A DNA stretch of 27,245 nucleotides from a virus, in the IMG/VR virus record IMGVR_UViG_3300030107_003361, positions 1 through 27,245 of that record. One strand, written 5' to 3'. Each line of letters opens with the position of its first letter. Position 1 is the first letter of the stretch. Positions 1,653 through 25,952 of this stretch are shown piece by piece. The notes under the pieces are model-generated. The model did not search any database, was not told the DNA's origin, and saw only the letters and a list, made by a program, of their open reading frames with translations. The position numbers and the translations under genes are program-made.

Positions 1653-2318
1653 ATGTATATAGAAGAATCAAGACATGATTTTAGAATGAGGTATAGAACT
1701 TGTTGCATAATAGCAAGTCATGTAGATTATGATGATGAAAAATTAATTTTCTATGTGGACGATATTGATGATGCAAGGGAATGGATTACAGGTTCTATTG
1801 TAAAAGAAAATGATTGGCACCCGGTTAGGTGGCACGTTGACGATTGTGATTTGGATTTTAGATTTCCTAAATTGGCATTATTAAATGCTAAGAAAGGTGT
1901 TGTCAGATTAACTAGGCAATTAGTTAAACAATACAGACAATCTTTTTCTCCTAATCTTGTCAGAATAATTAACGTAAACCAGGAGATAGCAAGTATATTT
2001 AACTTAGCACCTCTATCACATGAGGACTTAAAGCGACCATTATTTTTAAAGGATATATTTTTTCCTAGTTACTTCTCAGTTAGTGGTGCTATGAGTAGGA
2101 TTTTATCAGGAGATAGATACGCAGGTGCTATATCATGTGATTTTTATTTAACAGCACATTGGGTTGCACCCGGAATATACTTAGGATATAAAGATGTGTT
2201 GGTTGGTAAGATGAGGCAAGACAGAATTTATAATCCAACAGTAGACTTGTTCAGCGGTAATGATGATTTAGTTGAACTTATTCAATCAAATAATATTACA
2301 TTAGGAGGTATTCTCTAA
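1653..2318 (+). CDS. Hypothetical protein of the amidoligase cluster (221 aa)
   Basis: Not assigned to a family I can name. GAGG (1640-1643) lies upstream of the ATG. The sequence is soluble and mixed alpha/beta. The N-terminal 60 residues are rich in Asp, His and Trp (for example HVDYDDEK and WHPVRWHVDDCDLDF), which could bind metal, and a hydrophobic Gly/Tyr-rich stretch lies near residues 165-185. It has no signal peptide. Its stop overlaps the start of the next amidoligase (TAATG at 2316-2320), so translation is probably coupled. Being sandwiched between two amide ligases suggests a partner, substrate carrier or third enzyme of that pathway; this is inference from position only. Confidence 0.8.
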   Translation: MYIEESRHDFRMRYRTCCIIASHVDYDDEKLIFYVDDIDDAREWITGSIVKENDWHPVRWHVDDCDLDFRFPKLALLNAKKGVVRLTRQLVKQYRQSFSPNLVRIINVNQEIASIFNLAPLSHEDLKRPLFLKDIFFPSYFSVSGAMSRILSGDRYAGAISCDFYLTAHWVAPGIYLGYKDVLVGKMRQDRIYNPTVDLFSGNDDLVELIQSNNITLGGIL

Positions 2319-3505
2319 TGGAAAAAGATAACATGGGAAGTTTATTCTCTAATCCAGAAAACGTGCTAACTCATGAACCCTCAGATGAGTTTGTACTTCC
2401 TAGTTGTATTATAGGAGTTGAGGTTGAGGCTGAGGAATTAAAAGAAATAGCTAGTAGAGTTAGGTATGGATTTAGAGATGGCGAAACACACCATCTACTG
2501 AGTAGTACTAGAGCATCCAATGCACTTTCTCCAATAATATTTGGGAAAGGATATTGGTATGTAAAGTATGATGGGAGTTTGAGAAATGACGGAGTTGAGT
2601 TCGTAACTGATAAACTATGCGGAAAAGATTTATCATTAGCTTTACATGAATTGAACGACTACTTCAAAACATTATCACATAATCCTACTGAATCAGATAG
2701 GTGTAGTGTTCATGTGCATTTAGATATTAGGGATTTAAGTAAGACAGAGTTTATACGTTTGTTAATTGACTACGCTGTATTTGAAACTGTATTATTCAAT
2801 TACTGTGGTAAGCATAGACTAGAAAACTTGTACTGTCTACCTTTCGCCCGGTCAGATATGTTTAAAAAGACATTGGCTGATATGTATACATCATTTGAGG
2901 AACGAACTAAGTTTACTCATATGATTCGGGGGTTTCCTAAGTATAGTGCATTGAATGTAGGTGCATCATCTAGATATTGTAGTTTAGAGTTTAGGCAATA
3001 TGGTGGAACTACTGATATGATGAAAATTAAAGAATGGATAAATATAATTATGTGTTTGAAAAAGAATTGCAAAGGCAATTCCGCAGATAATTTACATAAT
3101 GATATATCCAGGTACGGGTATAGCAATTACCTTGAAAGGGTATTTGGTAAATACTCAAAAGTATTAGACTATAATGATTGTGAGGCGGATATAATAGAGG
3201 GAGTACGACTTGCTCAAGATATATTAAATCACAACAGAATGGTAAAAAGTAGTCTGGACTACTTTTATAATCTTAGTCCATTTAATACTGAATCTATTAC
3301 TGAGTGTATAGAGAAGTGGGAAATACCTTCCCCACTACTATCCTATGTGCATAGAGTAGATAAATTTTATAACTCACCCGGTCTCAGAGGTGTAATCAAT
3401 ACCTTTTTGTTTAGAGATAATCCTATGGATTCTACTGATGAAAACTACGATGAGTTAAATGAGGACTATGATGAGGAACGTGATTATGATGAGGAGGACG
3501 AGTAA
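2318..3505 (+). CDS. Putative amidoligase, glutamine-synthetase-like fold
   Basis: Matches the 'putative amidoligase' family (Amidoligase_2). Motifs are IIGVEVEAEE (residues 31-40), DGSLRNDGVEFV (about 85-96), CSVHVHLD (about 129-136) and the Arg-bearing SRYCSLEFRQYGG (about 219-231). These correspond to the acidic and basic residues that bind metal-ATP and the carboxylate in the fold. GGAGG lies 7 bases before the ATG and the gene overlaps its upstream neighbour by one base. Two oddities: palindrome copy 4 lies in frame, encoding KSSLDYF at 310-316, and the C-terminus (about 372-395) is an acidic Asp/Glu/Tyr tail that also encodes the ribosome-binding site of the next gene. Substrates unknown; context suggests peptide-like compounds. 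Confidence 0.87.
   Translation: MEKDNMGSLFSNPENVLTHEPSDEFVLPSCIIGVEVEAEELKEIASRVRYGFRDGETHHLLSSTRASNALSPIIFGKGYWYVKYDGSLRNDGVEFVTDKLCGKDLSLALHELNDYFKTLSHNPTESDRCSVHVHLDIRDLSKTEFIRLLIDYAVFETVLFNYCGKHRLENLYCLPFARSDMFKKTLADMYTSFEERTKFTHMIRGFPKYSALNVGASSRYCSLEFRQYGGTTDMMKIKEWINIIMCLKKNCKGNSADNLHNDISRYGYSNYLERVFGKYSKVLDYNDCEADIIEGVRLAQDILNHNRMVKSSLDYFYNLSPFNTESITECIEKWEIPSPLLSYVHRVDKFYNSPGLRGVINTFLFRDNPMDSTDENYDELNEDYDEERDYDEEDE
3245..3266. repeat. 22-bp palindrome, copy 4 of 8 (inside a gene)
   Basis: Same arms with a TG centre. It lies wholly within the amidoligase gene and is translated as Lys-Ser-Ser-Leu-Asp-Tyr-Phe without breaking the frame. Its presence in coding DNA argues against a simple obligatory terminator. 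Confidence 0.95.
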
Positions 3506-4906
3506 ATGTGCGGATTAACAGGAATAATAAACTTAGAAATATCACATACATGGAACTCTGATGTAGACAAAAAAGTTTTCAAAGAACTGCTAGAAGTTAC
3601 TTCTTTGAGAGGTAGACATTCGACAGGTGTATTCACAGTTCCTCATGATGATAAGGAAAAGTGTGATGTACTTAAAAGGGCTGTTACTGCATCTGAGTTC
3701 ATACAACTAGATGTATATGAAAAGTTGATGAAAGACTTCAATGAGTTTCGTTACCTAGTAGGTCATGCCCGGTATGCTACTGATGGAGTTGTGAGTGATG
3801 CTACTGCTCACCCATTTATCCATGAAAATATTATCTTAGTTCATAATGGCTCAGTTCAAAATAAACATGAACTTTGTCAATTATCAGATATGAAAGGCAC
3901 GGATTGTTCGGTGGATTCTCAGTCATTGGCTTTTGCTCTACATAAAAATCCAATTGAAGACTTTGTAGAAAAGATACAGGGTGCTTTTACCATTGTATGG
4001 TATGACACATCTAGTAAAAAATTACATTTTATACGAAACACGGAAAGACCACTACACTTCGGAATAGTTGAAGGAAGTGAAAATAATATAATATTTGCGT
4101 CAGAGGCAGAGGCATTATATTTTGTGGCTAAACGAAATAAGTTGACGTTATCTCGTATCTTTTCATTAGACGTAGGAACTTTACTGACATTCAATCATGA
4201 TTACTCTTTTGATTTAAAGAAACTTTATGATGGCAAGAAAGTTTCTCCCACTTATGCTAATCAAGGGTATGCTTGGAATAGAAGGCATGGTGGATATTAT
4301 CATGGTTATGATTATCGTAGAGTAGAACCAACTAGAAGGGTAGATGATTTGTTCCCTAATGAACTAGAAAAGGACTTTCCAGACCTAGACATGTCTAAAG
4401 GAGAGAGTATATCTTTTAAAGCGGTAGGATTTCAGCAGTACGCAAAGTCTGACAGAGGTACTTTGACCGGGCAATGTGTAGGTAATCCTGCGTATACAGT
4501 TAAGGTGTATAATATCTCTAAAGATTCTGTTCCTTTAGAGGGTGACTACTTACAAGGTACATTAACAGGAGTGTCAACCAACAAAACATCTAAATCATCA
4601 TATACTGAGGAAATCTATACGCTAGTGTTGGATTCAACTTCCATTAAAAGTAGTCCAGACTACTTTTTTGATGATGATGAACTTGAATTTGAAGACATAG
4701 GTTTGCAGTATATGATTGGTGATGAGATGGTGAGTTTGGAAAAGTGGTATGAAAAAACGCAGTATGGTTGTGACGCTTGTCAGCGTTCTATAAGTCCTCA
4801 TGAAGATTATCTTACTTCTTGGACAAACGCAGGTAAGCCAATTTGTAATGAGTGTAAAGATACAGGGGAATTTGATTCCCACATTAAAGTAGGTAACAAC
4901 GCATAG
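3506..4906 (+). CDS. Class II glutamine amidotransferase with C-terminal zinc ribbon
   Basis: N-terminal nucleophile (Ntn) glutaminase domain. The start MCGLTGIINL places catalytic Cys2 after Met removal. RGRHSTGV (35-42), GHARYATDG (about 86-94) and HNGSVQN (about 113-119) match the conserved glutamine-binding and oxyanion motifs of the GlmS/PurF type. The usual role is to release ammonia from glutamine for transfer. The C-terminal half is not a sugar-isomerase or PRTase domain. It has a Tyr/His/Arg-rich linker (about 250-275), an unassigned domain, and a four-Cys zinc ribbon (CDACQ and CNEC, about 423-450). Palindrome copy 5 encodes KSSPDYF at 381-387. The start follows the previous stop directly, with GAGGAGG upstream. 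Probably the ammonia or gamma-glutamyl donor for the neighbouring ligases. Confidence 0.88.
   Translation: MCGLTGIINLEISHTWNSDVDKKVFKELLEVTSLRGRHSTGVFTVPHDDKEKCDVLKRAVTASEFIQLDVYEKLMKDFNEFRYLVGHARYATDGVVSDATAHPFIHENIILVHNGSVQNKHELCQLSDMKGTDCSVDSQSLAFALHKNPIEDFVEKIQGAFTIVWYDTSSKKLHFIRNTERPLHFGIVEGSENNIIFASEAEALYFVAKRNKLTLSRIFSLDVGTLLTFNHDYSFDLKKLYDGKKVSPTYANQGYAWNRRHGGYYHGYDYRRVEPTRRVDDLFPNELEKDFPDLDMSKGESISFKAVGFQQYAKSDRGTLTGQCVGNPAYTVKVYNISKDSVPLEGDYLQGTLTGVSTNKTSKSSYTEEIYTLVLDSTSIKSSPDYFFDDDELEFEDIGLQYMIGDEMVSLEKWYEKTQYGCDACQRSISPHEDYLTSWTNAGKPICNECKDTGEFDSHIKVGNNA
4646..4667. repeat. 22-bp palindrome, copy 5 of 8 (inside a gene)
   Basis: CA-centred copy inside the amidotransferase gene, in the same frame as copy 4 (Lys-Ser-Ser-Pro-Asp-Tyr-Phe). 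It sits between the central domain and an acidic linker before the zinc ribbon, a likely permissive site. Confidence 0.95.
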
Positions 4907-14206: not shown

Positions 14207-14392
14207 ATGGGAGAAATTGATTATACTTTTACGGGAAGAAGAAAGACACAATTGTACGCTGAAAAAGTACACAAGGAAGGACCAATAGAAGCATCTAAAT
14301 GGTTAGAAGAAAATGCATCACTAGAAGAACTTGAAATAATAGGAAAACATATACAAAAGGAGATAGATAAATATGACTTCACTACCGAGTGA
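14207..14392 (+). CDS. Small hypothetical protein (61 aa) before the reductase
   Basis: Not recognised. ATG 14207 with AGGGGA upstream is preferred to the in-frame GTG 14171, which lies inside the stem-loop. The sequence is mostly helical and charged (YAEKVHKEGPIEASKWLEE, then a second helix EELEIIGKHIQKEIDKY), as in small helical-hairpin proteins. It overlaps the reductase start by 20 bases, and its C-terminus encodes the reductase ribosome-binding site (AAAGGAGAT). Co-expression with the reductase is therefore likely; role unknown. Confidence 0.7.
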   Translation: MGEIDYTFTGRRKTQLYAEKVHKEGPIEASKWLEENASLEELEIIGKHIQKEIDKYDFTTE

Positions 14393-16244
14393 ATACCAAC
14401 AGTTCATTCATCTTAGCAGATATGCTAGACATTTACCTGATAAACAGAGAAGAGAAACTTGGGTAGAAACTGTAGATAGATACGTAAATTTTTTTACTGA
14501 GAGATTTGATAACGAATTTGATTTATCTGAAGTAAAAAAAGCTATATTAAATTTAGAAGTTATGCCCTCTATGAGGTGTTTAATGACAGCAGGCAAAGCT
14601 TTAGATAGAGATAATGTAGCTGGGTTTAACTGTAGTTATTTACCAATAGATACTCCCCGAGCATTTGATGAGATAATGTATGTTTTAATGTGTGGTACTG
14701 GAGTTGGGTTTAGCGTGGAAAGACAGTTTATCAATCAGTTACCTCAGGTATCTGAAGAATTCCATGACACTAATACTGTGGTTCACGTAACTGATTCAAA
14801 AATGGGATGGGCTAGCGCTTACAGAGAGCTTATATCCCTGCTTTATTCTGGCAGGATACCATCATGGGACGTTTCAAAAGTTCGTCCAGCAGGAGCGAGA
14901 TTAAAGACCTTTGGAGGGCGTTCCTCAGGGCCAGAGCCGTTAGAAGAATTGTTTAAATTTACAGTAGATACTTTTATATCTGCTAAAGGAAGAAAACTTA
15001 CAAGCATAGAATGCCATGACATATGTTGTAAGGTAGGAGATATAGTTGTAGTAGGTGGAGTACGTAGGTCAGCATTAATATCTTTATCTAATCTTAGTGA
15101 CGATAGAATGAGAATAGCTAAGTCTGGTAATTGGTGGGAATTACATGGCCACAGAGCTCTAGCTAACAATTCTGCGTGTTATACCGAAACCCCGGACATG
15201 GCTCAGTTTATGTCAGAATGGCAAGCATTATATATGAGTCACTCAGGGGAGCGTGGTATATTTAATAGAACTGCAGCTAAGAAATTCTCTCCTGAACGTA
15301 GGGATACTGAATGGGAGTTTGGCACTAATCCATGTTCTGAAATTGTGTTAAGACCTAATCAATTTTGTAATTTATCTGAGGTTATAATAAGACCTAAAGA
15401 TACTCTTAAAGACCTTAAAAAGAAAGTAGAAATTGCTACTATAATAGGTACTATGCAGGCTACGTTAACTGACTTCAGATATTTGAGGTCAACTTGGAAA
15501 AAGAATACAGAAGAAGAAGCATTACTAGGAGTATCATTGACAGGTATAATGGACCATCAAACTCTTAGCACATGTAAAGACACAACTAAAAAATGGCTGA
15601 AGGAGATGAAAAATGTGGCAGTCGATACGAATGAAACTTGGGCTAATAAGCTCGGAATTAACCCTAGCAGTGCAATCACTTGCGTCAAGCCTAGTGGTAC
15701 TGTTAGTCAGCTTACTAATACTGCTAGTGGGATACATCCTCGTCATAATGATTACTATATACGAACGGTGCGTCAAGACAACAAAGACCCACTAACTACT
15801 TTTATGAAAGAGTTTGGATTTCCTAATGAGCCCGCATTTGGTAAAGAAAATTCTACTACTATATTTTCTTTTGGATGTAAAAGTCCTAAAGGAGCAGTTA
15901 CTAGAGATGAAAAAACAGCCATAGAACAACTAGAACATTGGTTAGTGTATCAAGAAAATTGGTGTGAGCATAAACCTTCTATTACTGTTTACGTAAGAGA
16001 GCACGAATGGATGGAAGTAGGTGCTTGGGTATATAAACATTTTGATATTGTAAGTGGAATATCTTTTTTACCTTACGATGGAGGTACCTACAAACAAGCT
16101 CCGTACACAGATTGCACTAAAGAAGAGTATGAAGAGGCTGTAAAGAATACACCTAAAGCTGATTGGTCTTTTCTTGTTGAAGAAACTGATAACACAAGTA
16201 GTTCACAGCAACTAGCTTGTACTGGTAACGCCTGTGAGCTTTAG
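14373..16244 (+). CDS. Class II (B12-dependent) ribonucleotide reductase
   Basis: Monomeric adenosylcobalamin-dependent ribonucleoside-triphosphate reductase type, 623 aa, supplying deoxynucleotides for phage replication. Visible are the active-site Cys of GFNCSYLP (about C88), the radical Cys and Glu of NPCSEIVL (C321, E323), the second redox Cys of NQFCNLSE (C332), and a C-terminal shuttle pair CTGNAC (C616, C621) with the same four-residue spacing as L. leichmannii (C731, C736). It is shorter than that enzyme (739 aa), as common in phages. No intein, split or partner small subunit is seen. The requirement for cobalamin means the host must make or import B12. AAAGGAG sits upstream of the ATG. 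Confidence 0.93.
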   Translation: MTSLPSEYQQFIHLSRYARHLPDKQRRETWVETVDRYVNFFTERFDNEFDLSEVKKAILNLEVMPSMRCLMTAGKALDRDNVAGFNCSYLPIDTPRAFDEIMYVLMCGTGVGFSVERQFINQLPQVSEEFHDTNTVVHVTDSKMGWASAYRELISLLYSGRIPSWDVSKVRPAGARLKTFGGRSSGPEPLEELFKFTVDTFISAKGRKLTSIECHDICCKVGDIVVVGGVRRSALISLSNLSDDRMRIAKSGNWWELHGHRALANNSACYTETPDMAQFMSEWQALYMSHSGERGIFNRTAAKKFSPERRDTEWEFGTNPCSEIVLRPNQFCNLSEVIIRPKDTLKDLKKKVEIATIIGTMQATLTDFRYLRSTWKKNTEEEALLGVSLTGIMDHQTLSTCKDTTKKWLKEMKNVAVDTNETWANKLGINPSSAITCVKPSGTVSQLTNTASGIHPRHNDYYIRTVRQDNKDPLTTFMKEFGFPNEPAFGKENSTTIFSFGCKSPKGAVTRDEKTAIEQLEHWLVYQENWCEHKPSITVYVREHEWMEVGAWVYKHFDIVSGISFLPYDGGTYKQAPYTDCTKEEYEEAVKNTPKADWSFLVEETDNTSSSQQLACTGNACEL

Positions 16245-16309: not shown

Positions 16310-16525
16310 ATGAACCCAGACAACATTAAAGACCCAAAGCATTACGCTAGATGGAAAATAGAACCAGTTCAATTTATGATTGAAAATGAGATACCTTACG
16401 CTGAAGGCAACGTAATAAAATATATTATGCGTTGGAGATATAAAGGTGGTCTTGAAGATTTACATAAAGCTCAAGAGTATATAAAAATTCTAATAGATCA
16501 TGAATTAAAATGTTCAAAGTCTTAG
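16310..16525 (+). CDS. DUF3310 family protein (71 aa)
   Basis: Matches the small phage DUF3310 family, often loosely annotated as nucleotide kinase or SaV-like. The features are an early KDPKHYARW segment (about 7-15), PVQFMIEN (about 18-25), and the helix YAEGNVIKYIMRWRYKGG (about 29-46), which leads into DLHKAQEYI. Function is experimentally unclear. GAGG precedes the ATG. It ends 16 bases inside the methyltransferase gene, so both are likely in the same transcript. Position between reductase and methyltransferase is consistent with a nucleotide or DNA modification role. Confidence 0.82.
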   Translation: MNPDNIKDPKHYARWKIEPVQFMIENEIPYAEGNVIKYIMRWRYKGGLEDLHKAQEYIKILIDHELKCSKS

Positions 16526-17325
16526 ACCTATTCTCAGGCATAGGAGGATTTAGTCTAGGACTAGAGTCTACGGGATATTTTGAAACAATTGCTTTTTGTG
16601 AAATAGAAAAATATCCACAAAAAGTCTTAAAAAAGCATTGGCCAGGAGTACCAATATATGAAGACATCAGAGAAATGGATACAACAGGACTTGCTCCAGA
16701 CATCATCACAGGAGGATACCCCTGTCAACCTTTTAGTAACGCGGGTAAACAGAGAGGTGAAAAAGACCCAAGACACCTCTGGCCAGAAATGTTTAGAATT
16801 ATCAAAGAAACTAAACCAAGATGGATCCTTTGTGAAAATGTTTATGGACACATACGACTCGGATTGGACACCGTGCTCGATGACTTGGAGAGTGAAGGAT
16901 ACACAACGTGGTCGTTTATTATTCCAGCTTGCTCGGTTGGCGCCCCGCACGAAAGAAAAAGAGTCTTCATTGTGGCCCACTCCAAGACTATCGGAGTACA
17001 AGGATTGCGGACCAGTAGGGAGCAAGAGCCACACTCACATGTACAAAAGGAAATATCTTTGTGCAACAGTAAAGATGTGGCCGACACCAACCGCAAACGA
17101 GGACGCTTGTGGAAACCCCGGAACGAAGATGCAAAAAATGTTGGGCAACCATCCAGAAGTTCGAAATTCGGGGTCTGGAACTTTGAACCCAACGTGGGTA
17201 GAGTGGCTAATGGGATACCCTCTAGGGTGGACAGACTTAAAGGATTAGGTAATTCTATAGTACCACAAATAGCACAGACATTAGGAGATACAATTATTAG
17301 TTATGAAAACGTTATTAAGCATTGA
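16510..17325 (+). CDS. DNA (cytosine-5) methyltransferase
   Basis: 271-aa C5-cytosine methyltransferase of the Dcm class. Motifs are I (DLFSGIGGFS, 6-15, AdoMet binding), IV (PCQPFS, 71-76, catalytic Cys72), VI (CENV, 108-111), VIII (GAPHERKRV, 144-152), a target-recognition region (about 160-235) and X (GLGNSIVPQIA, 245-255). All core motifs are intact, so activity is likely: it transfers a methyl group to C5 of cytosine in a short target, probably protecting phage DNA from host restriction. The target site is not predictable. The gene is unusual in that 591 bases (16658-17248) also encode a second conserved-looking protein in the +1 frame. It overlaps DUF3310 upstream and a membrane gene downstream. 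Confidence 0.92.
   Translation: MFKVLDLFSGIGGFSLGLESTGYFETIAFCEIEKYPQKVLKKHWPGVPIYEDIREMDTTGLAPDIITGGYPCQPFSNAGKQRGEKDPRHLWPEMFRIIKETKPRWILCENVYGHIRLGLDTVLDDLESEGYTTWSFIIPACSVGAPHERKRVFIVAHSKTIGVQGLRTSREQEPHSHVQKEISLCNSKDVADTNRKRGRLWKPRNEDAKNVGQPSRSSKFGVWNFEPNVGRVANGIPSRVDRLKGLGNSIVPQIAQTLGDTIISYENVIKH
16658..17248 (+). CDS. Overprinted methyltransferase-associated protein (196 aa)
   Basis: A complete second frame inside the methyltransferase gene. It has its own Shine-Dalgarno sequence AGGAG (16644-16648), 9 bases before ATG 16658. The product is not shadow-like. It has CSMTWRVKDTQRGRLLFQLA (73-92), two WPTP motifs (106-109, 141-144) and LNPTWVEWLMGYPLGWTDL (176-194). From memory, these motifs match a recurrent phage family usually labelled 'DNA cytosine methyltransferase' or its neighbour. 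Such proteins lack the AdoMet and PCQ motifs, so catalysis is not expected; a specificity or inhibitor partner of the methyltransferase is possible. An internal start at 16838 exists but has no ribosome-binding site. Gene real: likely; function: unknown. Confidence 0.72.
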   Translation: MKTSEKWIQQDLLQTSSQEDTPVNLLVTRVNREVKKTQDTSGQKCLELSKKLNQDGSFVKMFMDTYDSDWTPCSMTWRVKDTQRGRLLFQLARLAPRTKEKESSLWPTPRLSEYKDCGPVGSKSHTHMYKRKYLCATVKMWPTPTANEDACGNPGTKMQKMLGNHPEVRNSGSGTLNPTWVEWLMGYPLGWTDLKD

Positions 17326-19304: not shown

Positions 19305-19506
19305 GTACTACCTCTAATTTTTTTTCTTCTAATTTATATGTTTTATGTTTAAAATAAACACTAACAATTAAAGAACAAAAGGCTATTCCCAAAGCAAATA
19401 AAGTTGAATGGTGGTCTATATAAGCAGCTACACACGCCCATCCTGAACAACTATACAATATAAAATCTATTCCTTTAACTACAGGGTCGGGGTATTTATA
19501 TATCAT
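19276..19506 (-). CDS. Small two-TM membrane protein (76 aa), holin-like
   Basis: Two hydrophobic segments, about 11-29 (GIDFILYSCSGWACVAAYI) and 35-51 (TLFALGIAFCSLIVSVY), are followed by a basic, charged C-terminal tail (KHKTYKLEEKKLEVVHG). Two helices plus a charged cytoplasmic tail is the shape of a class II holin. It lies directly before the DUF5675 and 3-TM holin genes, so it may be a second holin, antiholin or pinholin. It overlaps the 1429-aa gene by 4 bases and the DUF5675 gene by 29. Confidence 0.75.
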   Translation of the reverse strand: MIYKYPDPVVKGIDFILYSCSGWACVAAYIDHHSTLFALGIAFCSLIVSVYFKHKTYKLEEKKLEVVHGTDIKKSS

Positions 19507-22500
19507 CTTTCTGTCCTTGCTGTTCTTGCTCTTCTTCCTCTTGAGTCTTTAATCTCAAGTCCCATATTATCATTTATAAATTGTGTGTACATATCAGATA
19601 AACCCTCTCTCCATTCATCTCTTATATTTCCTACTGGGGTTATTCTAGCTAATTCTCTGCCTAGAGTACGAGCATTGCCTGATAAAGCAGCAGATGCAAA
19701 TCTTTCAGCTTTATTAAAGCCTGGGCCCAAGAAAACACCTAATTTACCTGTTCCGTGAGAATGGAATAAAGCGTCTAAACCAAATTGAGCTGGACCCATA
19801 ATTCCCCATCTTTCAGCAGCTCTAATTGCCCATCTGTATTTGTCATTTGGAAATTGTTGTATATAAAATGGATTTTCTTCTCCGTATCTAATTTGGTCAG
19901 TAATTACATTAGATAAGTGAGCTAATATCATCATCATCATTCCAGTACTTACAGCGTATGTAGCATTTCTACCCTGTAAAGGTATTCCGTTTTCATGTAA
20001 TGCTTTAAAAGTATCAGCACCCCATCTTCTTAATACTGTGTTTCCGATAAGAGTTGGAAATGCTTTTAAATGTTTTATCACAGCAAGTCCCGGATGAGCA
20101 TGCCACAAAGGCACAATAGCTGGATTAGGGGTTAATACAGAATCTTCAGCAAAAATTAAAGCTGCTTTTTTAAATTTTTCAAAGAAAGGTCCTTCTAACT
20201 TAGCACCATCTTTTACCCATTGTATTCCTTCTTTTGTTGGTAGGTCATAATAATCCATTAGTTTGTCCATTCTGAGTTCTTCTTCAGGACGTAATCCAGT
20301 TTTTTTACCTTGAGCTTTACGAGTAAAATAATCTTGCGCCATAAAATCAAAAGTACTGACTGCTAAATGATTCATCCATTTAGTCCAATAGAAAAGACCG
20401 TTAGCTCTAAACAGAATATTATTTCCTATTGTAAAGTCTCCAGCAAATAGTTGATTTGCTCTTTCCATTGCTGCAATATCTCCAGCTTTATTTATAGCTT
20501 CTACCACTAACATAGATCTGGTTTTGTCTTGTTCTCGTCCTTTCCAATCTCTGTTTATAGCTCTTGCTATTTGTTTAGGTAAAGTGACAAACAATTCTTG
20601 TGGTAAAGCTTTACTATATGCCTTTATTCCACCATGATAATATGGCAACGCTGATTCAGGTATAGAAGCAACAGTTGCTAATGGTAATAAAGCCATATTT
20701 AAAAGAGTTATATATCCTTTTTGAGTTTTAACCCACCACTTAGCTGTGTTAGATTTATAAATACCTTGAAAAGCTGACCATAAATTTACTAAATGTTCAA
20801 CTTCCTGCTGTCTTAATGGTCTTCCAGCAGCCTCTAATTCTTCAGCTGCCCTATGAATTCTATTATATAATAGTTCACTATTTGGACCATTAATACGAGC
20901 GTATTCTACCCTAGCAGTACCGTCTTCAATGTATCTTTGTACTCTTTTAAATACACTTGGGTCTAGTAACCTTCCAAATTCTAAATCAGGAACATCTTTA
21001 AATACTCTCTCAAAGTCCAAAGAACCAGCTTTTTTCGCAACAAGTTTAGCTTCATTAACGTCTCTAAATCTTCCCTCAGCCATAATTTCTTTTGCTGATA
21101 AAAGCTCAGGACTAATTTGAATTGAACCTTTGTTAATTATTATATGATCTACAAAGGATATTGCTGCTTCTCTGGCAGCATTTACGTCTCCAAAATTTTC
21201 TTTTGCTCTGGCTAAAGAATCAGGATATTTTTGAAAAATATTTGTAAAAATATCTTCAGCTGCTGTTCTGTGTCTTTCTGCCCATTTCCAATCCATAGTT
21301 CTTGGTAGCCAATTTTTATGATATTCTAAGTCTGGAAATACTTTTTTAGCATAAATATGAAAATCATCAAGTATTTTTCTTATAACATCTCCTTGTTTTT
21401 TTATAAGAGGAGATATTTTCATTTTTGTATTAGGGTTAGTTAAATGTTCAATTAAAGGTATATTTACTTTAGGATTTCCTTTAAATGCTTTAAAAGTTTC
21501 TTGTACGTGAGGAAACCACTTTCCTCTTAAAGGATACCATGCATTTAATAACCGTTGTTGAAATTCTCCTGAACGAGTATGCCTAGAAGAATGATAACTG
21601 TCCATAACTTTTTTAATATCGGAGAATGCTTCAGGTCTCCACAAACTATCCATTATTTCTCTAAAAGCTGGACTTATATCTCTTAAAAATACAGAAGGTC
21701 CTGGAACTCTCAAACGAGCACCAACACCCGTGTAGTCACCTGGAAGAACATCTCTGAGTGTATTATCAGTTTTCCAAAAAGAAACAGCTCTTCCTCCAGC
21801 TATATGTATAAGATGACGCCACATTGGCATTTGTTCATTAACTAGAGCCGAAGGTTTACCTTTAGCAATTATGGTACTAGGATGCGTATTAGTTGCTTCT
21901 TGCCAAGCCTCTGCAGGTAACTTACCAGCATTATCAACTGCTTTGGTAACTTGCTCAGGCATAGATTTTTTTGGTGTAAAAATTTCTTCCACATTTAATC
22001 CTGATTCTCTATAAATTTCTTTTATAGTTTTAAGGTATGGACTTATAGCATCTTCTCCAGTATTAGGAGGAGTCTTTTGTTTTTTATAACCTTCCACTAT
22101 TCCCTTCGCACCTCTGGCTAGCATGGTTTTAGGAAATACTGTTTCTTTAACTTGTTTTTTTGCAGCTTTAGCTATATCAGTTTTATATATTTCATTATTT
22201 TCTACGAGATTTTTTAAATATTTTATATCATTAGTTTCAGCTATACTTTTTCCTCTGGCAGCTATTTCTTGAAATACCATTACTTCTGCTTCAGAATAAA
22301 ATGTTGGTTTACCATCTTTATTTTTTATAAAATACCCTCTGGTAAATATTTCTTCTCCATTACTTAACGCATCTCTAGCAGCATCATACATAGAAGGTTT
22401 TTTAGGATTAGAAGTATATAATCTATTAGATTTTCCTACTACAGCTGGTTGTATAAGAGACATAATTTCGCTAGCAACTTCTTTAGGAAGATTAGAAGGT

Positions 22501-23792
22501 ATTCTTGCTTGTGCAGCTTTTACAAGTCTTCCAATTTTCTTTGCTTCAGCAATAGCATCTAATGCTAAAACAGCTTCATCAACATTCTTAAGTATAACTC
22601 TTCTTCCTGAACCTTCATACCATTTTTTATATTCTTTATTTGCATATTGTACAAACTTTTTATCTATGGTACTTTTAGCGTAGTCTTTACCAGTTTTTGG
22701 ATTAACTCCTTCTCTGGCTCTAAACTCTCCATACCTTAAAACAGATAATGCTTGTATTTCAGCCAAAGTAGCTAAATCTGGTGGTTTCCCTTCAGCAGCA
22801 CTTTCTGACATTCTATCCCATTTTGTATGAACTTCTGTTCCTGTTTCAAGAGCTACAGGTTTATCAGCTTCCTGTTGTCTTTTTTCACGTTCTAAATAAT
22901 CACGTATTACTTCATGTGATTGTCTATATTGAACATCAATAGCTTCCAAACTCATTTTAGGATGTTCTGCTAATACTTTTTGTTTGAAGGATTCAAAACT
23001 AATAACTAGACCAGGAGTTTTATTATTTTCAAACCAAGGCGTTTCCCACTTAGTCCATTTAAACTCCGCACCAGCTCCTAATGGAGGTAATCTTAATTTT
23101 GTTTTTGGAATACCATATCTTTTTCCGGGAAATTGTTTAGATATTTTATAAGCTATTCCTTCTTCAATACCAAAGGTTTTAGCTTTTTCCCATTTTGTTA
23201 ATGGTTTTGCTCCTTTTGGGCGAGGACGAGCAGCGATGGCTCGTGTACCGATGATGGGAGTTAATAATCCTATACCTTCTGTAGCTGTTCTGGCAAACGT
23301 AGCTAAGGCTGGACTATTAGTTTCTTGGAAAGTTTTTTCTCCAAGAGCTTCTCCCCATTTATGAATTCTTTGAAATACTTCTTTATCCAACATGGTTAAA
23401 ACTCTTTCTCCAGATTCAGTTTGAGCCTGAGTAAGTTTTACACCAAGTATTTTTGGAAACTTCATTATGGTGTCATTATATATGTGGTCAAATACTGGTT
23501 TAAATTCGTCCCAGTTACCAGTTCTTAAACCATGATAAGTTGCTGTAACAGTTGCTGTTGAGCCTCCAAAAGCAAACCCAATGGCACCTTTAACTAATCC
23601 TTCAATAGTTCCTGGTATTGATGTTACTACATTTGAAATAGTACGACCACCTTTAGGACCAGTGTATCCACCAATCTCACCAGGAGTAGTTAAAGTAGAG
23701 CCATGAAATTTAAACCCTGAAGAAGTTTTTCCTTTTTTTAAAAAAGAAAAATCACCACTCGCTTTGTTAGGATCCGATCCATGAAATTGCAT
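19503..23792 (-). CDS. Giant internal virion / DNA-ejection protein (1429 aa)
   Basis: Largest gene of the window. The N-terminal 130 residues include a Gly/Thr-rich hydrophobic stretch (GTIEGLVKGAIGFAFGGSTA, about 54-73) that could enter a membrane. The middle (about 300-900) is charged and helical. The C-terminal 500 residues have several hydrophobic segments (ITLLNMALLPLATVASI; STGMMMMILAHLSNVI) and the pattern NPAIVPLWHAHPGLAVIKH. This architecture resembles the large polyvalent or internal-virion proteins of podovirus-like phages that are ejected ahead of DNA. No lytic transglycosylase motif was seen. It starts in a TAATG overlap with the upstream gene. Function inferred from size, composition and neighbours. 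Confidence 0.8.
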   Translation of the reverse strand: MQFHGSDPNKASGDFSFLKKGKTSSGFKFHGSTLTTPGEIGGYTGPKGGRTISNVVTSIPGTIEGLVKGAIGFAFGGSTATVTATYHGLRTGNWDEFKPVFDHIYNDTIMKFPKILGVKLTQAQTESGERVLTMLDKEVFQRIHKWGEALGEKTFQETNSPALATFARTATEGIGLLTPIIGTRAIAARPRPKGAKPLTKWEKAKTFGIEEGIAYKISKQFPGKRYGIPKTKLRLPPLGAGAEFKWTKWETPWFENNKTPGLVISFESFKQKVLAEHPKMSLEAIDVQYRQSHEVIRDYLEREKRQQEADKPVALETGTEVHTKWDRMSESAAEGKPPDLATLAEIQALSVLRYGEFRAREGVNPKTGKDYAKSTIDKKFVQYANKEYKKWYEGSGRRVILKNVDEAVLALDAIAEAKKIGRLVKAAQARIPSNLPKEVASEIMSLIQPAVVGKSNRLYTSNPKKPSMYDAARDALSNGEEIFTRGYFIKNKDGKPTFYSEAEVMVFQEIAARGKSIAETNDIKYLKNLVENNEIYKTDIAKAAKKQVKETVFPKTMLARGAKGIVEGYKKQKTPPNTGEDAISPYLKTIKEIYRESGLNVEEIFTPKKSMPEQVTKAVDNAGKLPAEAWQEATNTHPSTIIAKGKPSALVNEQMPMWRHLIHIAGGRAVSFWKTDNTLRDVLPGDYTGVGARLRVPGPSVFLRDISPAFREIMDSLWRPEAFSDIKKVMDSYHSSRHTRSGEFQQRLLNAWYPLRGKWFPHVQETFKAFKGNPKVNIPLIEHLTNPNTKMKISPLIKKQGDVIRKILDDFHIYAKKVFPDLEYHKNWLPRTMDWKWAERHRTAAEDIFTNIFQKYPDSLARAKENFGDVNAAREAAISFVDHIIINKGSIQISPELLSAKEIMAEGRFRDVNEAKLVAKKAGSLDFERVFKDVPDLEFGRLLDPSVFKRVQRYIEDGTARVEYARINGPNSELLYNRIHRAAEELEAAGRPLRQQEVEHLVNLWSAFQGIYKSNTAKWWVKTQKGYITLLNMALLPLATVASIPESALPYYHGGIKAYSKALPQELFVTLPKQIARAINRDWKGREQDKTRSMLVVEAINKAGDIAAMERANQLFAGDFTIGNNILFRANGLFYWTKWMNHLAVSTFDFMAQDYFTRKAQGKKTGLRPEEELRMDKLMDYYDLPTKEGIQWVKDGAKLEGPFFEKFKKAALIFAEDSVLTPNPAIVPLWHAHPGLAVIKHLKAFPTLIGNTVLRRWGADTFKALHENGIPLQGRNATYAVSTGMMMMILAHLSNVITDQIRYGEENPFYIQQFPNDKYRWAIRAAERWGIMGPAQFGLDALFHSHGTGKLGVFLGPGFNKAERFASAALSGNARTLGRELARITPVGNIRDEWREGLSDMYTQFINDNMGLEIKDSRGRRARTARTER

Positions 23793-24892
23793 TATTTTTG
23801 CTCTGTAGATGTAACCATATTTACAAAGGTATCTATATTCTCAGCAACTAATGTATCCGCTGCTGCTTGATTAGTAACGCCATTTTGTTCTGCGTAGTCT
23901 ATAACTGCTTGTTCAAATAATTCTTTGTCAAAACCCATACCTTTAGCTAATTCACCTACTGGATGTATATAATTAAAATTGCTTCCCATAACGCCTTGTG
24001 AATCAGATTCAACTTGCCACATGTCTCCCATATTGCCTGCTACATCAGATGCATATCCTCCAAGAGGAGTTATTTTTTGTATTGCAGCAACTAGTTTTTG
24101 TAGTTGAGCTTCACTTCTTTTGTTTTCATGACCCTCAGCTACTTGCACATGTCCTTGAGATGTTATTGTTATACCTGCACCAAGATTTCCAGTAGCTGCT
24201 ATAATAGCATTTCCAGCGTTAGCTCTTTGAGTATTTTGTATGTCTAAAGTATCTTTAACATTACCTAATATATCACTTTCACTAAGTTGATTTTCCGCAA
24301 ATAACGCTTCTCTTTCTCTTGCATATGGTCCCATATGTGCAGCTACACGATTCATTTCTCTTATAAAAGGTAAATGTTGTAAAGTTAATCCTTGAAATTC
24401 ACCAGAATCCATATCAATTCCTATATCAAAAGGTTCTCCAGTAGTACTTTGATACTCTTCTCGTAATGCTTGAAGATGAAAATTTGCTCTTTCTATAGCA
24501 TCAGAATCCCCACTTTCTAAAGCTCTTTGAATTTCCTGACCTCTAGCAAATTGCATATCATATATTCTAGCTAATTGTTTATCTTCTAATTCCCATTTTT
24601 TAGCATCTAATTCTACTTGCATTTTAGCTGAGAAATAATGAGGATTATCTATTAAATGTTGATGCATTTGTTGTGCTGTAGTTACTTGTAAAGCGTTTAA
24701 TGCATCTCTGGTAGGTCTGTTTGCTTTTAACTCATCAAATTGATACTCAGACTGTTCTAGAGTTAATTCAGCTGCACGTTTCCTAGTCCCAAACGTTTCT
24801 TTCATCTCAAAAGTTTGTTGTTTAGTTTGCTCAGTAGATGCTCTAGTAGCTTGTAAATTAGCTAATGATTCTAAACCTGTTTGAATTGCCAT
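23792..24892 (-). CDS. Internal virion protein, coiled-coil rich (366 aa)
   Basis: Ala/Glu/Gln-rich helical protein with long coiled-coil tendency over residues 1-190 (for example KETFGTRKRAAELTLEQSEY). A less regular Gly/Asn-rich region spans about 215-320. No catalytic motif or membrane segment. It sits between the Gly-rich protein and the giant ejection-type protein, the layout of internal core proteins in T7-like and other podoviruses. GGAG precedes the ATG. Likely one of three ejected core proteins; sequence alone does not prove it. Confidence 0.78.
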   Translation of the reverse strand: MAIQTGLESLANLQATRASTEQTKQQTFEMKETFGTRKRAAELTLEQSEYQFDELKANRPTRDALNALQVTTAQQMHQHLIDNPHYFSAKMQVELDAKKWELEDKQLARIYDMQFARGQEIQRALESGDSDAIERANFHLQALREEYQSTTGEPFDIGIDMDSGEFQGLTLQHLPFIREMNRVAAHMGPYAREREALFAENQLSESDILGNVKDTLDIQNTQRANAGNAIIAATGNLGAGITITSQGHVQVAEGHENKRSEAQLQKLVAAIQKITPLGGYASDVAGNMGDMWQVESDSQGVMGSNFNYIHPVGELAKGMGFDKELFEQAVIDYAEQNGVTNQAAADTLVAENIDTFVNMVTSTEQK

Positions 24893-24902
24893 AATTAATC
24901 TC

Positions 24903-25952
24903 CTAGACTATTGTGTCTAATATGTTGCCTATTGCTTGAGTTGTAGAACGAGCACCAATATTTCTTTCTGCTAACTGCCCTTCAAGAGTAGCAATATTTG
25001 CAGTCATTGTATCCGCACCACCAGCAACAGATGTCCAATAAGATCTTTCTGCACCAATAAATTTACTTTCAAGATCCATTAAACCTCGTTTAAATTGATC
25101 TCTACCAAATCCTGATTCAGCTGGATTATGTCCTTGCGCCACAAGAAGTCTTTTTAATCTTTCAGCTTCTCTGTCTAACGCAGCATTGTAAGTTTCAGGC
25201 AGTTCTCCTCTGGCTAATTTTTCTTGATGTTTTTTAGCCTCACTAGCATAGTATTCACCATATTCACTTCTGTACTGACCTAAATTCTTTCTAAGAGCAT
25301 CTAATTGTTGTTGTTGTATATTTCCTTCATACGCTGAATATCCAGAAGTAATAGCTTCTTTTAAGAATTCTCTGTCAAGTTTCATTCCAGTTCCAGAAGG
25401 ACCTATAGCTTGTCTTGGACTAAGCTGAGGTGTTCTTACTCCCTGTGAAGTAGTATGTCCAACAATATTTTTTCCTAATGTTACTGGGCTGCTACCTAAA
25501 GTACTAAGTTGAGGTGTGTATCCTCCTTTAGAAGCAAGCGAAGATGCTAAGAAACTTTGGGGTCCTTTAATTGCTGAAGTTACTGGGGATAATGTAGCAA
25601 GTCTTGCAGCAGTAGCACTTGATCCTAACGCTCCAGAAGCTAAGCCTAAATTTGTTGCTGTTCCAGCTCCATACTGTCCCATTAAACCAGCCATTTTTCC
25701 GCCAGCTTGTCCTAAACCTGTAGAAGCTCCACCAAAGAAATTACCAAAGCCACCAGTACCACCTAGGCCCTTCATAATTCCTCCACCAATACCACCCATA
25801 GCGCCTCCTATTAAGGCACCTTTAAGACCTCCTCCAGATACTATTCCACCCAAAGCTCCGCCAACCATTCCTCCAACAACTGGCCCGAGAGGTGTCATCA
25901 TACCAATAACTGGTAAGGCAATTCCTGCTATTTTCTTTACCGTAGACCCCAT
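24903..25952 (-). CDS. Gly-rich internal virion / DNA transfer protein (349 aa)
   Basis: The first 110 residues are a glycine-zipper region (GMVGGALGGIVSGG; GGAMGGIGGGIMKGLGG) typical of membrane-inserting phage ejection proteins. A Ser/Thr-rich linker follows. The C-terminal half is helical and charged (YRSEYGEYYASEAKKHQEKL; ESKFIGAERSYW). Proteins with this N-terminus are common just upstream of large ejection proteins in podovirus-like genomes and are thought to form part of the periplasm- or membrane-spanning conduit. GGAG lies 8 bases before the ATG. Confidence 0.8.
   Translation of the reverse strand: MGSTVKKIAGIALPVIGMMTPLGPVVGGMVGGALGGIVSGGGLKGALIGGAMGGIGGGIMKGLGGTGGFGNFFGGASTGLGQAGGKMAGLMGQYGAGTATNLGLASGALGSSATAARLATLSPVTSAIKGPQSFLASSLASKGGYTPQLSTLGSSPVTLGKNIVGHTTSQGVRTPQLSPRQAIGPSGTGMKLDREFLKEAITSGYSAYEGNIQQQQLDALRKNLGQYRSEYGEYYASEAKKHQEKLARGELPETYNAALDREAERLKRLLVAQGHNPAESGFGRDQFKRGLMDLESKFIGAERSYWTSVAGGADTMTANIATLEGQLAERNIGARSTTQAIGNILDTIV

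Follow-up and report, generated by a model that had tools for sequence, protein, structure and literature searches.

The window analysed here, a virus record of 27,245 bases, holds two genes, A and B, which are read from the same DNA in two frames and which probably encode the two subunits of a single phage C5-cytosine DNA methyltransferase (C5-MTase). An earlier sequence-only reading of this DNA had noticed a 591-base ORF (16658–17248, our gene B) inside the methyltransferase gene (our gene A), and the position it gave is correct. It is already known that an overlap of this kind is annotated in some phages and that two-chain C5-MTases exist. The features on which our interpretation is built are collected in Table 1, where frame 1 is that of A and frame 2, at +1, that of B.

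Table 1. Features of the overlapping A and B genes in the window
Feature	Position	Strand	Description and basis
Gene A	16510–17325	+	271-aa ORF; probable large (catalytic) polypeptide of a C5-MTase, motifs I–VIII and X
AGGAG, predicted ribosome-binding site of B	16644–16648	+	Sequence; nine bases 5′ of the ATG
Gene B	16658–17248	+	196 aa, ATG start, +1 frame, wholly within A; probable small polypeptide; phrog_1008, 2.4e-32; dual-frame constraint
A, presumed motif IV GGYPCQPFSNAG with the catalytic PC	16711–16746	+	Translation
B residues 75–93, predicted beta hairpin MTWRVKDTQRGRLLFQLAR	16880–16936	+	Best-scoring part of a poor model of B
A, motif VIII APHERKRVFIVA	16942–16977	+	Translation; near the end of the M.HhaI profile match
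B residues 106–172, proposed target-recognition region	16973–17173	+	omega_B 0.45; two WPTP modules, from residues 106 and 141
A residues 157–229, near-neutral linker	16978–17196	+	omega_A 0.84 (0.76–0.94); reads the B recognition region out of frame
B residues 176–194, motif IX LNPTWVEWLMGYPLGWTDL	17183–17239	+	hhalign to single-chain C5-MTases
A residues 245–259, motif X GLGNSIVPQIAQTLG	17242–17286	+	Confident AF2 helices at residues 239–248 and 252–270

Gene A and its motifs

The sequence-only reading took frame 1 for a cytosine methyltransferase complete with its target-recognition region, and the first part of that claim stands: A matches PF00145 (Pfam) with an E value of 2.9e-48, the match covering only positions 1–194 of the 324 in the profile, and phrog_363 at 2e-80. 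The catalytic-domain motifs I–VIII that characterize the PF00145 class, with their PC and ENV signatures, are all present in A; the segment at 16711–16746 is one that we take to be motif IV. Motif X is present as well. It gives a weak, collinear second match to M.HhaI residues 297–319 (0.5 bits), and the structural alignment with M.HhaI extends to model residue 271. Motif IX is absent from A by profile in the M.HhaI comparison, and to that extent A does not carry it in the same chain as the catalytic motifs.

In the AlphaFold (AF2) model of A the catalytic domain and the C-terminal helices are predicted with confidence, and the model aligns with M.HhaI with a Z score of 24.5 over 207 residues (rmsd 2.7), with a fit at both ends. 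Residues 165–224 have a pLDDT under 50, which is consistent with disorder. The target-recognition region that had been placed in frame 1 is apparently not a working one: the stretch in question is near neutral in A and is not modelled with confidence, and it is frame 2 in which the recognition region and motif IX are read. We also note that A residues 230–243 (17197–17238; GRVANGIPSRVDRL) are strongly conserved in the family. The same bases encode motif IX of B and the two frames are about equally constrained there, and the conserved segment may have a role of its own in A or may be forced by B.

Gene B and its relatives

B looks like a genuine gene. Frame 2 has its own AGGAG and ATG, as had been pointed out, and most relatives have a comparable start. 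An A gene is present at 166 loci and complete at 153 of them, and 105 were left once near-copies had been taken out; in 89 of these 105 genes a start codon with a Shine-Dalgarno (SD)-like site is present for B, whereas 30 shuffles averaged 43.8 and never exceeded 53. The suggestion that the frame 2 product belongs to a phage protein family found with C5-MTases proved accurate, since B matches phrog_1008, a family labelled ‘DNA methyltransferase’ (Table 1), and this profile is matched by all 77 members of the set of B proteins that we assembled. B had no significant match in Pfam or NCBIfam, a Pfam search with all 77 members returned nothing significant, the B profile, when compared with solved structures, matched nothing but Csf1, at chance level (E 0.83 and 0.91), and phrog_1008 was not found in 14 control genomes. 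By tblastn, 93 phage records contain B or a relative with an E value no higher than 1e-5. In Escherichia phage K1ind1 the nested gene is annotated as ‘Mte8-like protein’ inside a ‘C-specific methylase’, and in Paenibacillus phage Shelly, where the pair is gp55/gp56, as ‘g55 internal gene’; in Zerg, C72C1 and R9.1 one gene only is annotated at the corresponding place. No description of the role of the nested product was found in the literature searched, which lay mostly outside subscription journals.

The two genes keep close company. A profile built from the 77 B proteins fetched 80 viral loci and another 80 from bacterial genomes that span many phyla, and in all 160 of them (80/80 and 80/80) B lies in the +1 frame of an overlapping A; B without A was not found among these 160. 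Likewise, at least 600 viral stretches code for a relative of B, and A is in the frame preceding B in all 80 of the best loci picked from them. Since sets selected on B are biased to an intact B, a fair test calls for the set picked with A. There, 80 loci were kept of 263 stretches found with an A query, and all 80 have an open +1 frame that matches the B profile, although the A-picked and B-picked sets have some contigs in common. Frame 2 is thus not broken by stops in any of these A-picked relatives; such stops were one outcome by which the sequence-only reading would have been refuted. In one Roseovarius assembly (OX638333.1) the A/B pair is present in five chromosomal copies (L215–L219) with equal match statistics, perhaps in repeated prophages.

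These counts also bear on whether B might be a separate protein, such as a regulator, an anti-restriction protein or an accessory factor, that is not part of the enzyme. The first 90 or so residues of B have no profile match in single-chain C5-MTases, as might be expected of such a protein. We nevertheless consider this unlikely, as no B without A occurs at the 160 loci examined, and as motif IX, which A lacks along with a recognition region, forms the end of B.

Coding constraint in the two frames

Selection in each frame was assessed from 49 independent gene pairs, 70–98.5% identical, by simple counts of changes, uncorrected for multiple hits, according to their effect in that frame. Over the whole overlap omega_A is 0.48 (0.41–0.54) and omega_B is 0.42 (0.34–0.51), and change that is synonymous in A occurs at 0.43 of its rate in the A-only parts of the gene. 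Both frames are under purifying selection over the overlap, and the dual-frame constraint that the sequence-only reading had named as a check is there. A B-type ratio calculated in A-only DNA, where it is meaningless, is 0.64 (0.55–0.74), so the B ratios have to be judged against 0.64 as a baseline.

The dominant frame differs from part to part. Over motifs IV–VIII omega_A is 0.19 and omega_B 0.36; from motif VIII to the GRVANG sequence, the linker of A, they are 0.84 (0.76–0.94) and 0.45 (0.35–0.57); and from GRVANG to the stop of B they are 0.25 and 0.21. Within the linker the rates of change at A codon positions 1, 2 and 3 are 0.272, 0.154 and 0.173, which makes the fastest-changing position the third position of B codons. 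In agreement with this, one relative (L009) shares, over the same DNA, 86% identity with the window in frame 2 and 50% in frame 1.

Conservation of A might by itself drag along a spurious ORF in the other frame, and shuffled A genes do retain a median B-profile score of 83 bits. The real genes, however, have a median B-HMM score of 260 bits, and likeness to B is therefore partly, but far from wholly, a passive consequence of A. Synonymous-codon shuffles of the 105 non-redundant A genes attained the observed open length in the +1 frame in only 28 of 21,000 trials. When we add that the constrained frame in the linker is that of B and not that of A, the comparison with L009, and the lack of any stop in B in the 80 A-picked relatives, a spurious frame 2 is extremely improbable, and B as a by-product of A was rejected on the shuffles and the omega analysis together. 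The long dual coding that had been proposed from the window is thus supported.

Frame 1 also stays open where its residues matter little. The linker of A is open in 102 of 102 tested genes, compared with 5.2 expected under synonymous shuffles that preserve B; the other three of the 105 were filtered out, because the stretch could not be placed, was shorter than 20 residues or had a stop in frame 2, and, as A genes were picked as open frames, a broken A would appear as a shortened gene and not as a failure in this test. The residues of A here are thus near neutral and yet its frame is free of stops, which fits a single A chain that runs on to motif X.

The sequence-only reading had offered a frameshift-made hybrid as its alternative, in which a +1 shift after motif VIII would give one chain with motifs I–VIII, the recognition region and motif IX. 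Single-chain relatives with just this order exist, and a +1 shift would restore it. Motif X, however, is back in the frame of A, around and after the stop of B, and a second shift would be required to reach it. An open frame 1 through the linker would be superfluous for an enzyme made only by shifting, and 89 of the 105 genes have a start and SD-like site for B. Finally, frame 2 is constrained upstream of the region of the shift, over motifs IV–VIII, where A-synonymous change is 0.43 of control. We therefore regard a hybrid as quite unlikely, chiefly because frame 2 is constrained well upstream and frame 1 is open through the spacer, and favour two separately translated chains.

Motif IX and the single-chain relatives

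Some phage C5-MTases bear an FVEWMMG motif, and a search on this motif found at least 120 stretches, from which 80 loci were taken among the matches listed. In 25 of these 80 listed loci FVEWMMG shares an ORF with the catalytic motifs, in 45 it has A in the preceding frame, and 10 have neither layout. In four of the last group (L364, L378, L386 and L405) A stops after motif VIII, and a B-like region, motif IX and motif X are borne by a +1 ORF that overlaps it by about 200–300 bases. Of the remaining six, L350 and L403 are more fragmented and four are at contig ends.

A profile of 18 single-chain enzymes aligns with A over 169 columns (hhalign, probability 100) and with B over 21 columns, LNPTWVEWLMGYPLGWTD, with a probability of 95.6 and an E value of 1.1e-8; the latter match is to motif IX only, and the N-terminal 90 or so residues of B found no profile match in the single-chain enzymes. 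The FVEWMMG of the single-chain enzymes and the LGNGVV that follows it align in turn, weakly (4.7 bits), with M.HhaI residues 271–307. From the single-chain profile match and this alignment we conclude that B ends in motif IX. AlphaFold gave a poor model of B alone (pLDDT 60.6, pTM 0.26) except for the hairpin, where the block means for residues 71–90 are 75 and 93, and the motif IX helix. The predicted structure therefore does not establish a small-domain fold for B.

The proposed recognition region and its WPTP modules

The two WPTP motifs (B residues 106 and 141) and the LNPTWVEWLMGYPLGWTDL signature (residues 176–194) that were noted in the frame 2 product are indeed present. We propose, from sequence, that the WPTP stretch sits where the target-recognition region of a C5-MTase belongs, and it is assigned as such because of its position, its variable length and its modularity. 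Among relatives it varies from 36 to 293 residues, and the number of PTP units climbs with the length of B. The first WPTP module of the window was found in 27 and the second in 36 of 298 recognition regions, at varying positions; the 298 include repeated contigs, and 249 are distinct.

Similarity of the catalytic parts and similarity of the recognition regions do not always go together. Among 140 pairs of distinct loci whose catalytic parts are at least 90% identical, the recognition regions are without any match in 6, match only partially in 27, match in full at under 40% identity in 5, and are at least 70% identical in 56, the pairs not being independent of one another. L088 and L091, for example, carry different modules beside catalytic parts that are almost identical. 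Conversely, L015 and L284 have catalytic parts that are 41% identical and recognition regions that are 77% identical.

A lack of homologues of the frame 2 product outside the overlap was the other outcome by which the sequence-only reading would have been refuted. Whole B proteins outside the overlap are nearly absent, but the single-chain enzymes carry the motif IX end of B in frame and WPTP modules lie past A in a few relatives. In particular, 14 of the 105 loci were listed with B extending beyond the stop of A; nine of these were judged to be the next gene and five to be B itself (L035, L078, L079, L089 and L113). Extra WPTP modules beyond the A stop, outside the overlap, are clear in L035, L078 and L079, with E values that refer to five sequences only. 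In these three the extra modules come after motif IX, an odd site for recognition modules.

A probable two-frame methyltransferase

Both frames match protein families, as the sequence-only reading had it; rather than two family proteins in their own right, they are most likely two domains of one enzyme. We infer that B is translated from its own ribosome-binding site inside A. The A chain would fold as the catalytic domain with motifs I–VIII and with the C-terminal motif X helices, and the roughly 70 residues between would form a floppy linker, which is the B recognition region read out of frame. The C-terminal half of B would provide the missing small domain, with the WPTP target-recognition modules and motif IX. 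A and B would then assemble into a heterodimer, and the active enzyme would methylate cytosine at a site chosen by B; such methylation would most likely shield the phage DNA from host restriction. A likely origin would start from a single chain, pass through an AquI-like split with partial overlap, and end with motif X taken back into the catalytic frame.

A broader reading, which we credit and doubt in equal measure, is that a large phage family holds its C5-methylase specificity domain in an overlapping frame. Exchange, duplication or shortening of WPTP cassettes could then leave the catalytic chain largely unaffected as long as both frames stay open, and that chain would read the cassettes as disordered linker; the steps from a single chain to an AquI-like split and the recapture of motif X belong to this reading too. 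The earlier suggestion of a tie between the specificity domain and a partner protein is supported.

If this is right, many phage methylase genes that are annotated as one protein make two, and the specificity of such methylases would be sought in the wrong frame. The family is also a natural test of the way in which two proteins share a long same-strand overlap, with a dominant frame that differs by part, and a source of naturally split methylases whose target-choosing half could be studied by itself.

Genes around the A/B pair

Just upstream of the methylase is a ribonucleotide reductase gene (14373–16244, + strand) that matches B12-dependent (class II) models, and a DUF3310 gene (16310–16525) adjoins it. 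Farther to the left is a run of amidoligase-type genes (783–1613, 2318–3505 and 3506–4906, + strand), whose members are a COOH.NH2 ligase (phrog_3815), an amidoligase (PF12224, phrog_7469) and a glutamine amidotransferase-like gene (PF13522, phrog_4736); it is possibly a small peptide- or wall-modifying cassette. On the − strand, a 1,429-aa ORF (19503–23792) has no Pfam match at E 0.001, and its neighbours at 23792–24892 and 24903–25952 have no PHROG match.

Comparison with known systems

The nearest annotated relatives, phrog_1008, the ‘Mte8-like’ protein and the ‘g55 internal gene’, have the same family and layout as B, and their labels give no role. Single-chain phage C5-MTases with the LSPxFVEWMMG motif share the catalytic domain and motif IX with the A/B pair; unlike the pair, they have all motifs in one frame. 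ShiLan resembles the pair in that a phage methylase gene also contains another gene out of frame, there an HNH endonuclease (PMC11855218). The HNH gene is an inserted homing element of patchy distribution, whereas B is present in every A-picked locus and ends in a methylase motif.

Two-polypeptide C5-MTases are closer. In M.AquI (CYCGRG), according to PMC3404938, the split is in the variable region, and the large chain has motifs I–VIII and the small chain the distal variable region and motif IX. Motif X of M.AquI is in the small subunit and that of the phage pair is in the large one: in an AquI-type enzyme the small chain holds IX as well as X, and B stops at 17248 with the motif X helices in A. 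The four phage loci with a B-like +1 ORF that runs on through motif X (L364, L378, L386 and L405) look AquI-like. For permuted enzymes, a split between motif VIII and the target-recognition domain (TRD) is described as one whose two polypeptides correspond roughly to the two domains.

M.EcoHK31I is a two-polypeptide C5-MTase acting on YGGCCR whose small ORF, too, is contained in the large one and read in a different frame. PMC3404938 places motifs I–VIII and X in its larger polypeptide and motif IX in its smaller one, and the phage pair has the same division. By its layout we therefore class the pair with the M.EcoHK31I type, since motifs I–VIII and X are in A and motif IX is in B. The TRD of M.EcoHK31I is predicted in the large subunit (PMC3404938), in contrast to the phage pair, where the proposed one reads in the small subunit; that placement is itself a prediction, and we do not treat it as defining. 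M.EcoHK31I is named after a restriction-modification system, and no endonuclease was seen among the neighbours of the phage pair that were scanned; a plasmid search gave nine records, none of which was recognised as the M.EcoHK31I system. In the present loci an M.EcoHK31I-like layout takes the form of a widespread phage family that reuses WPTP modules.
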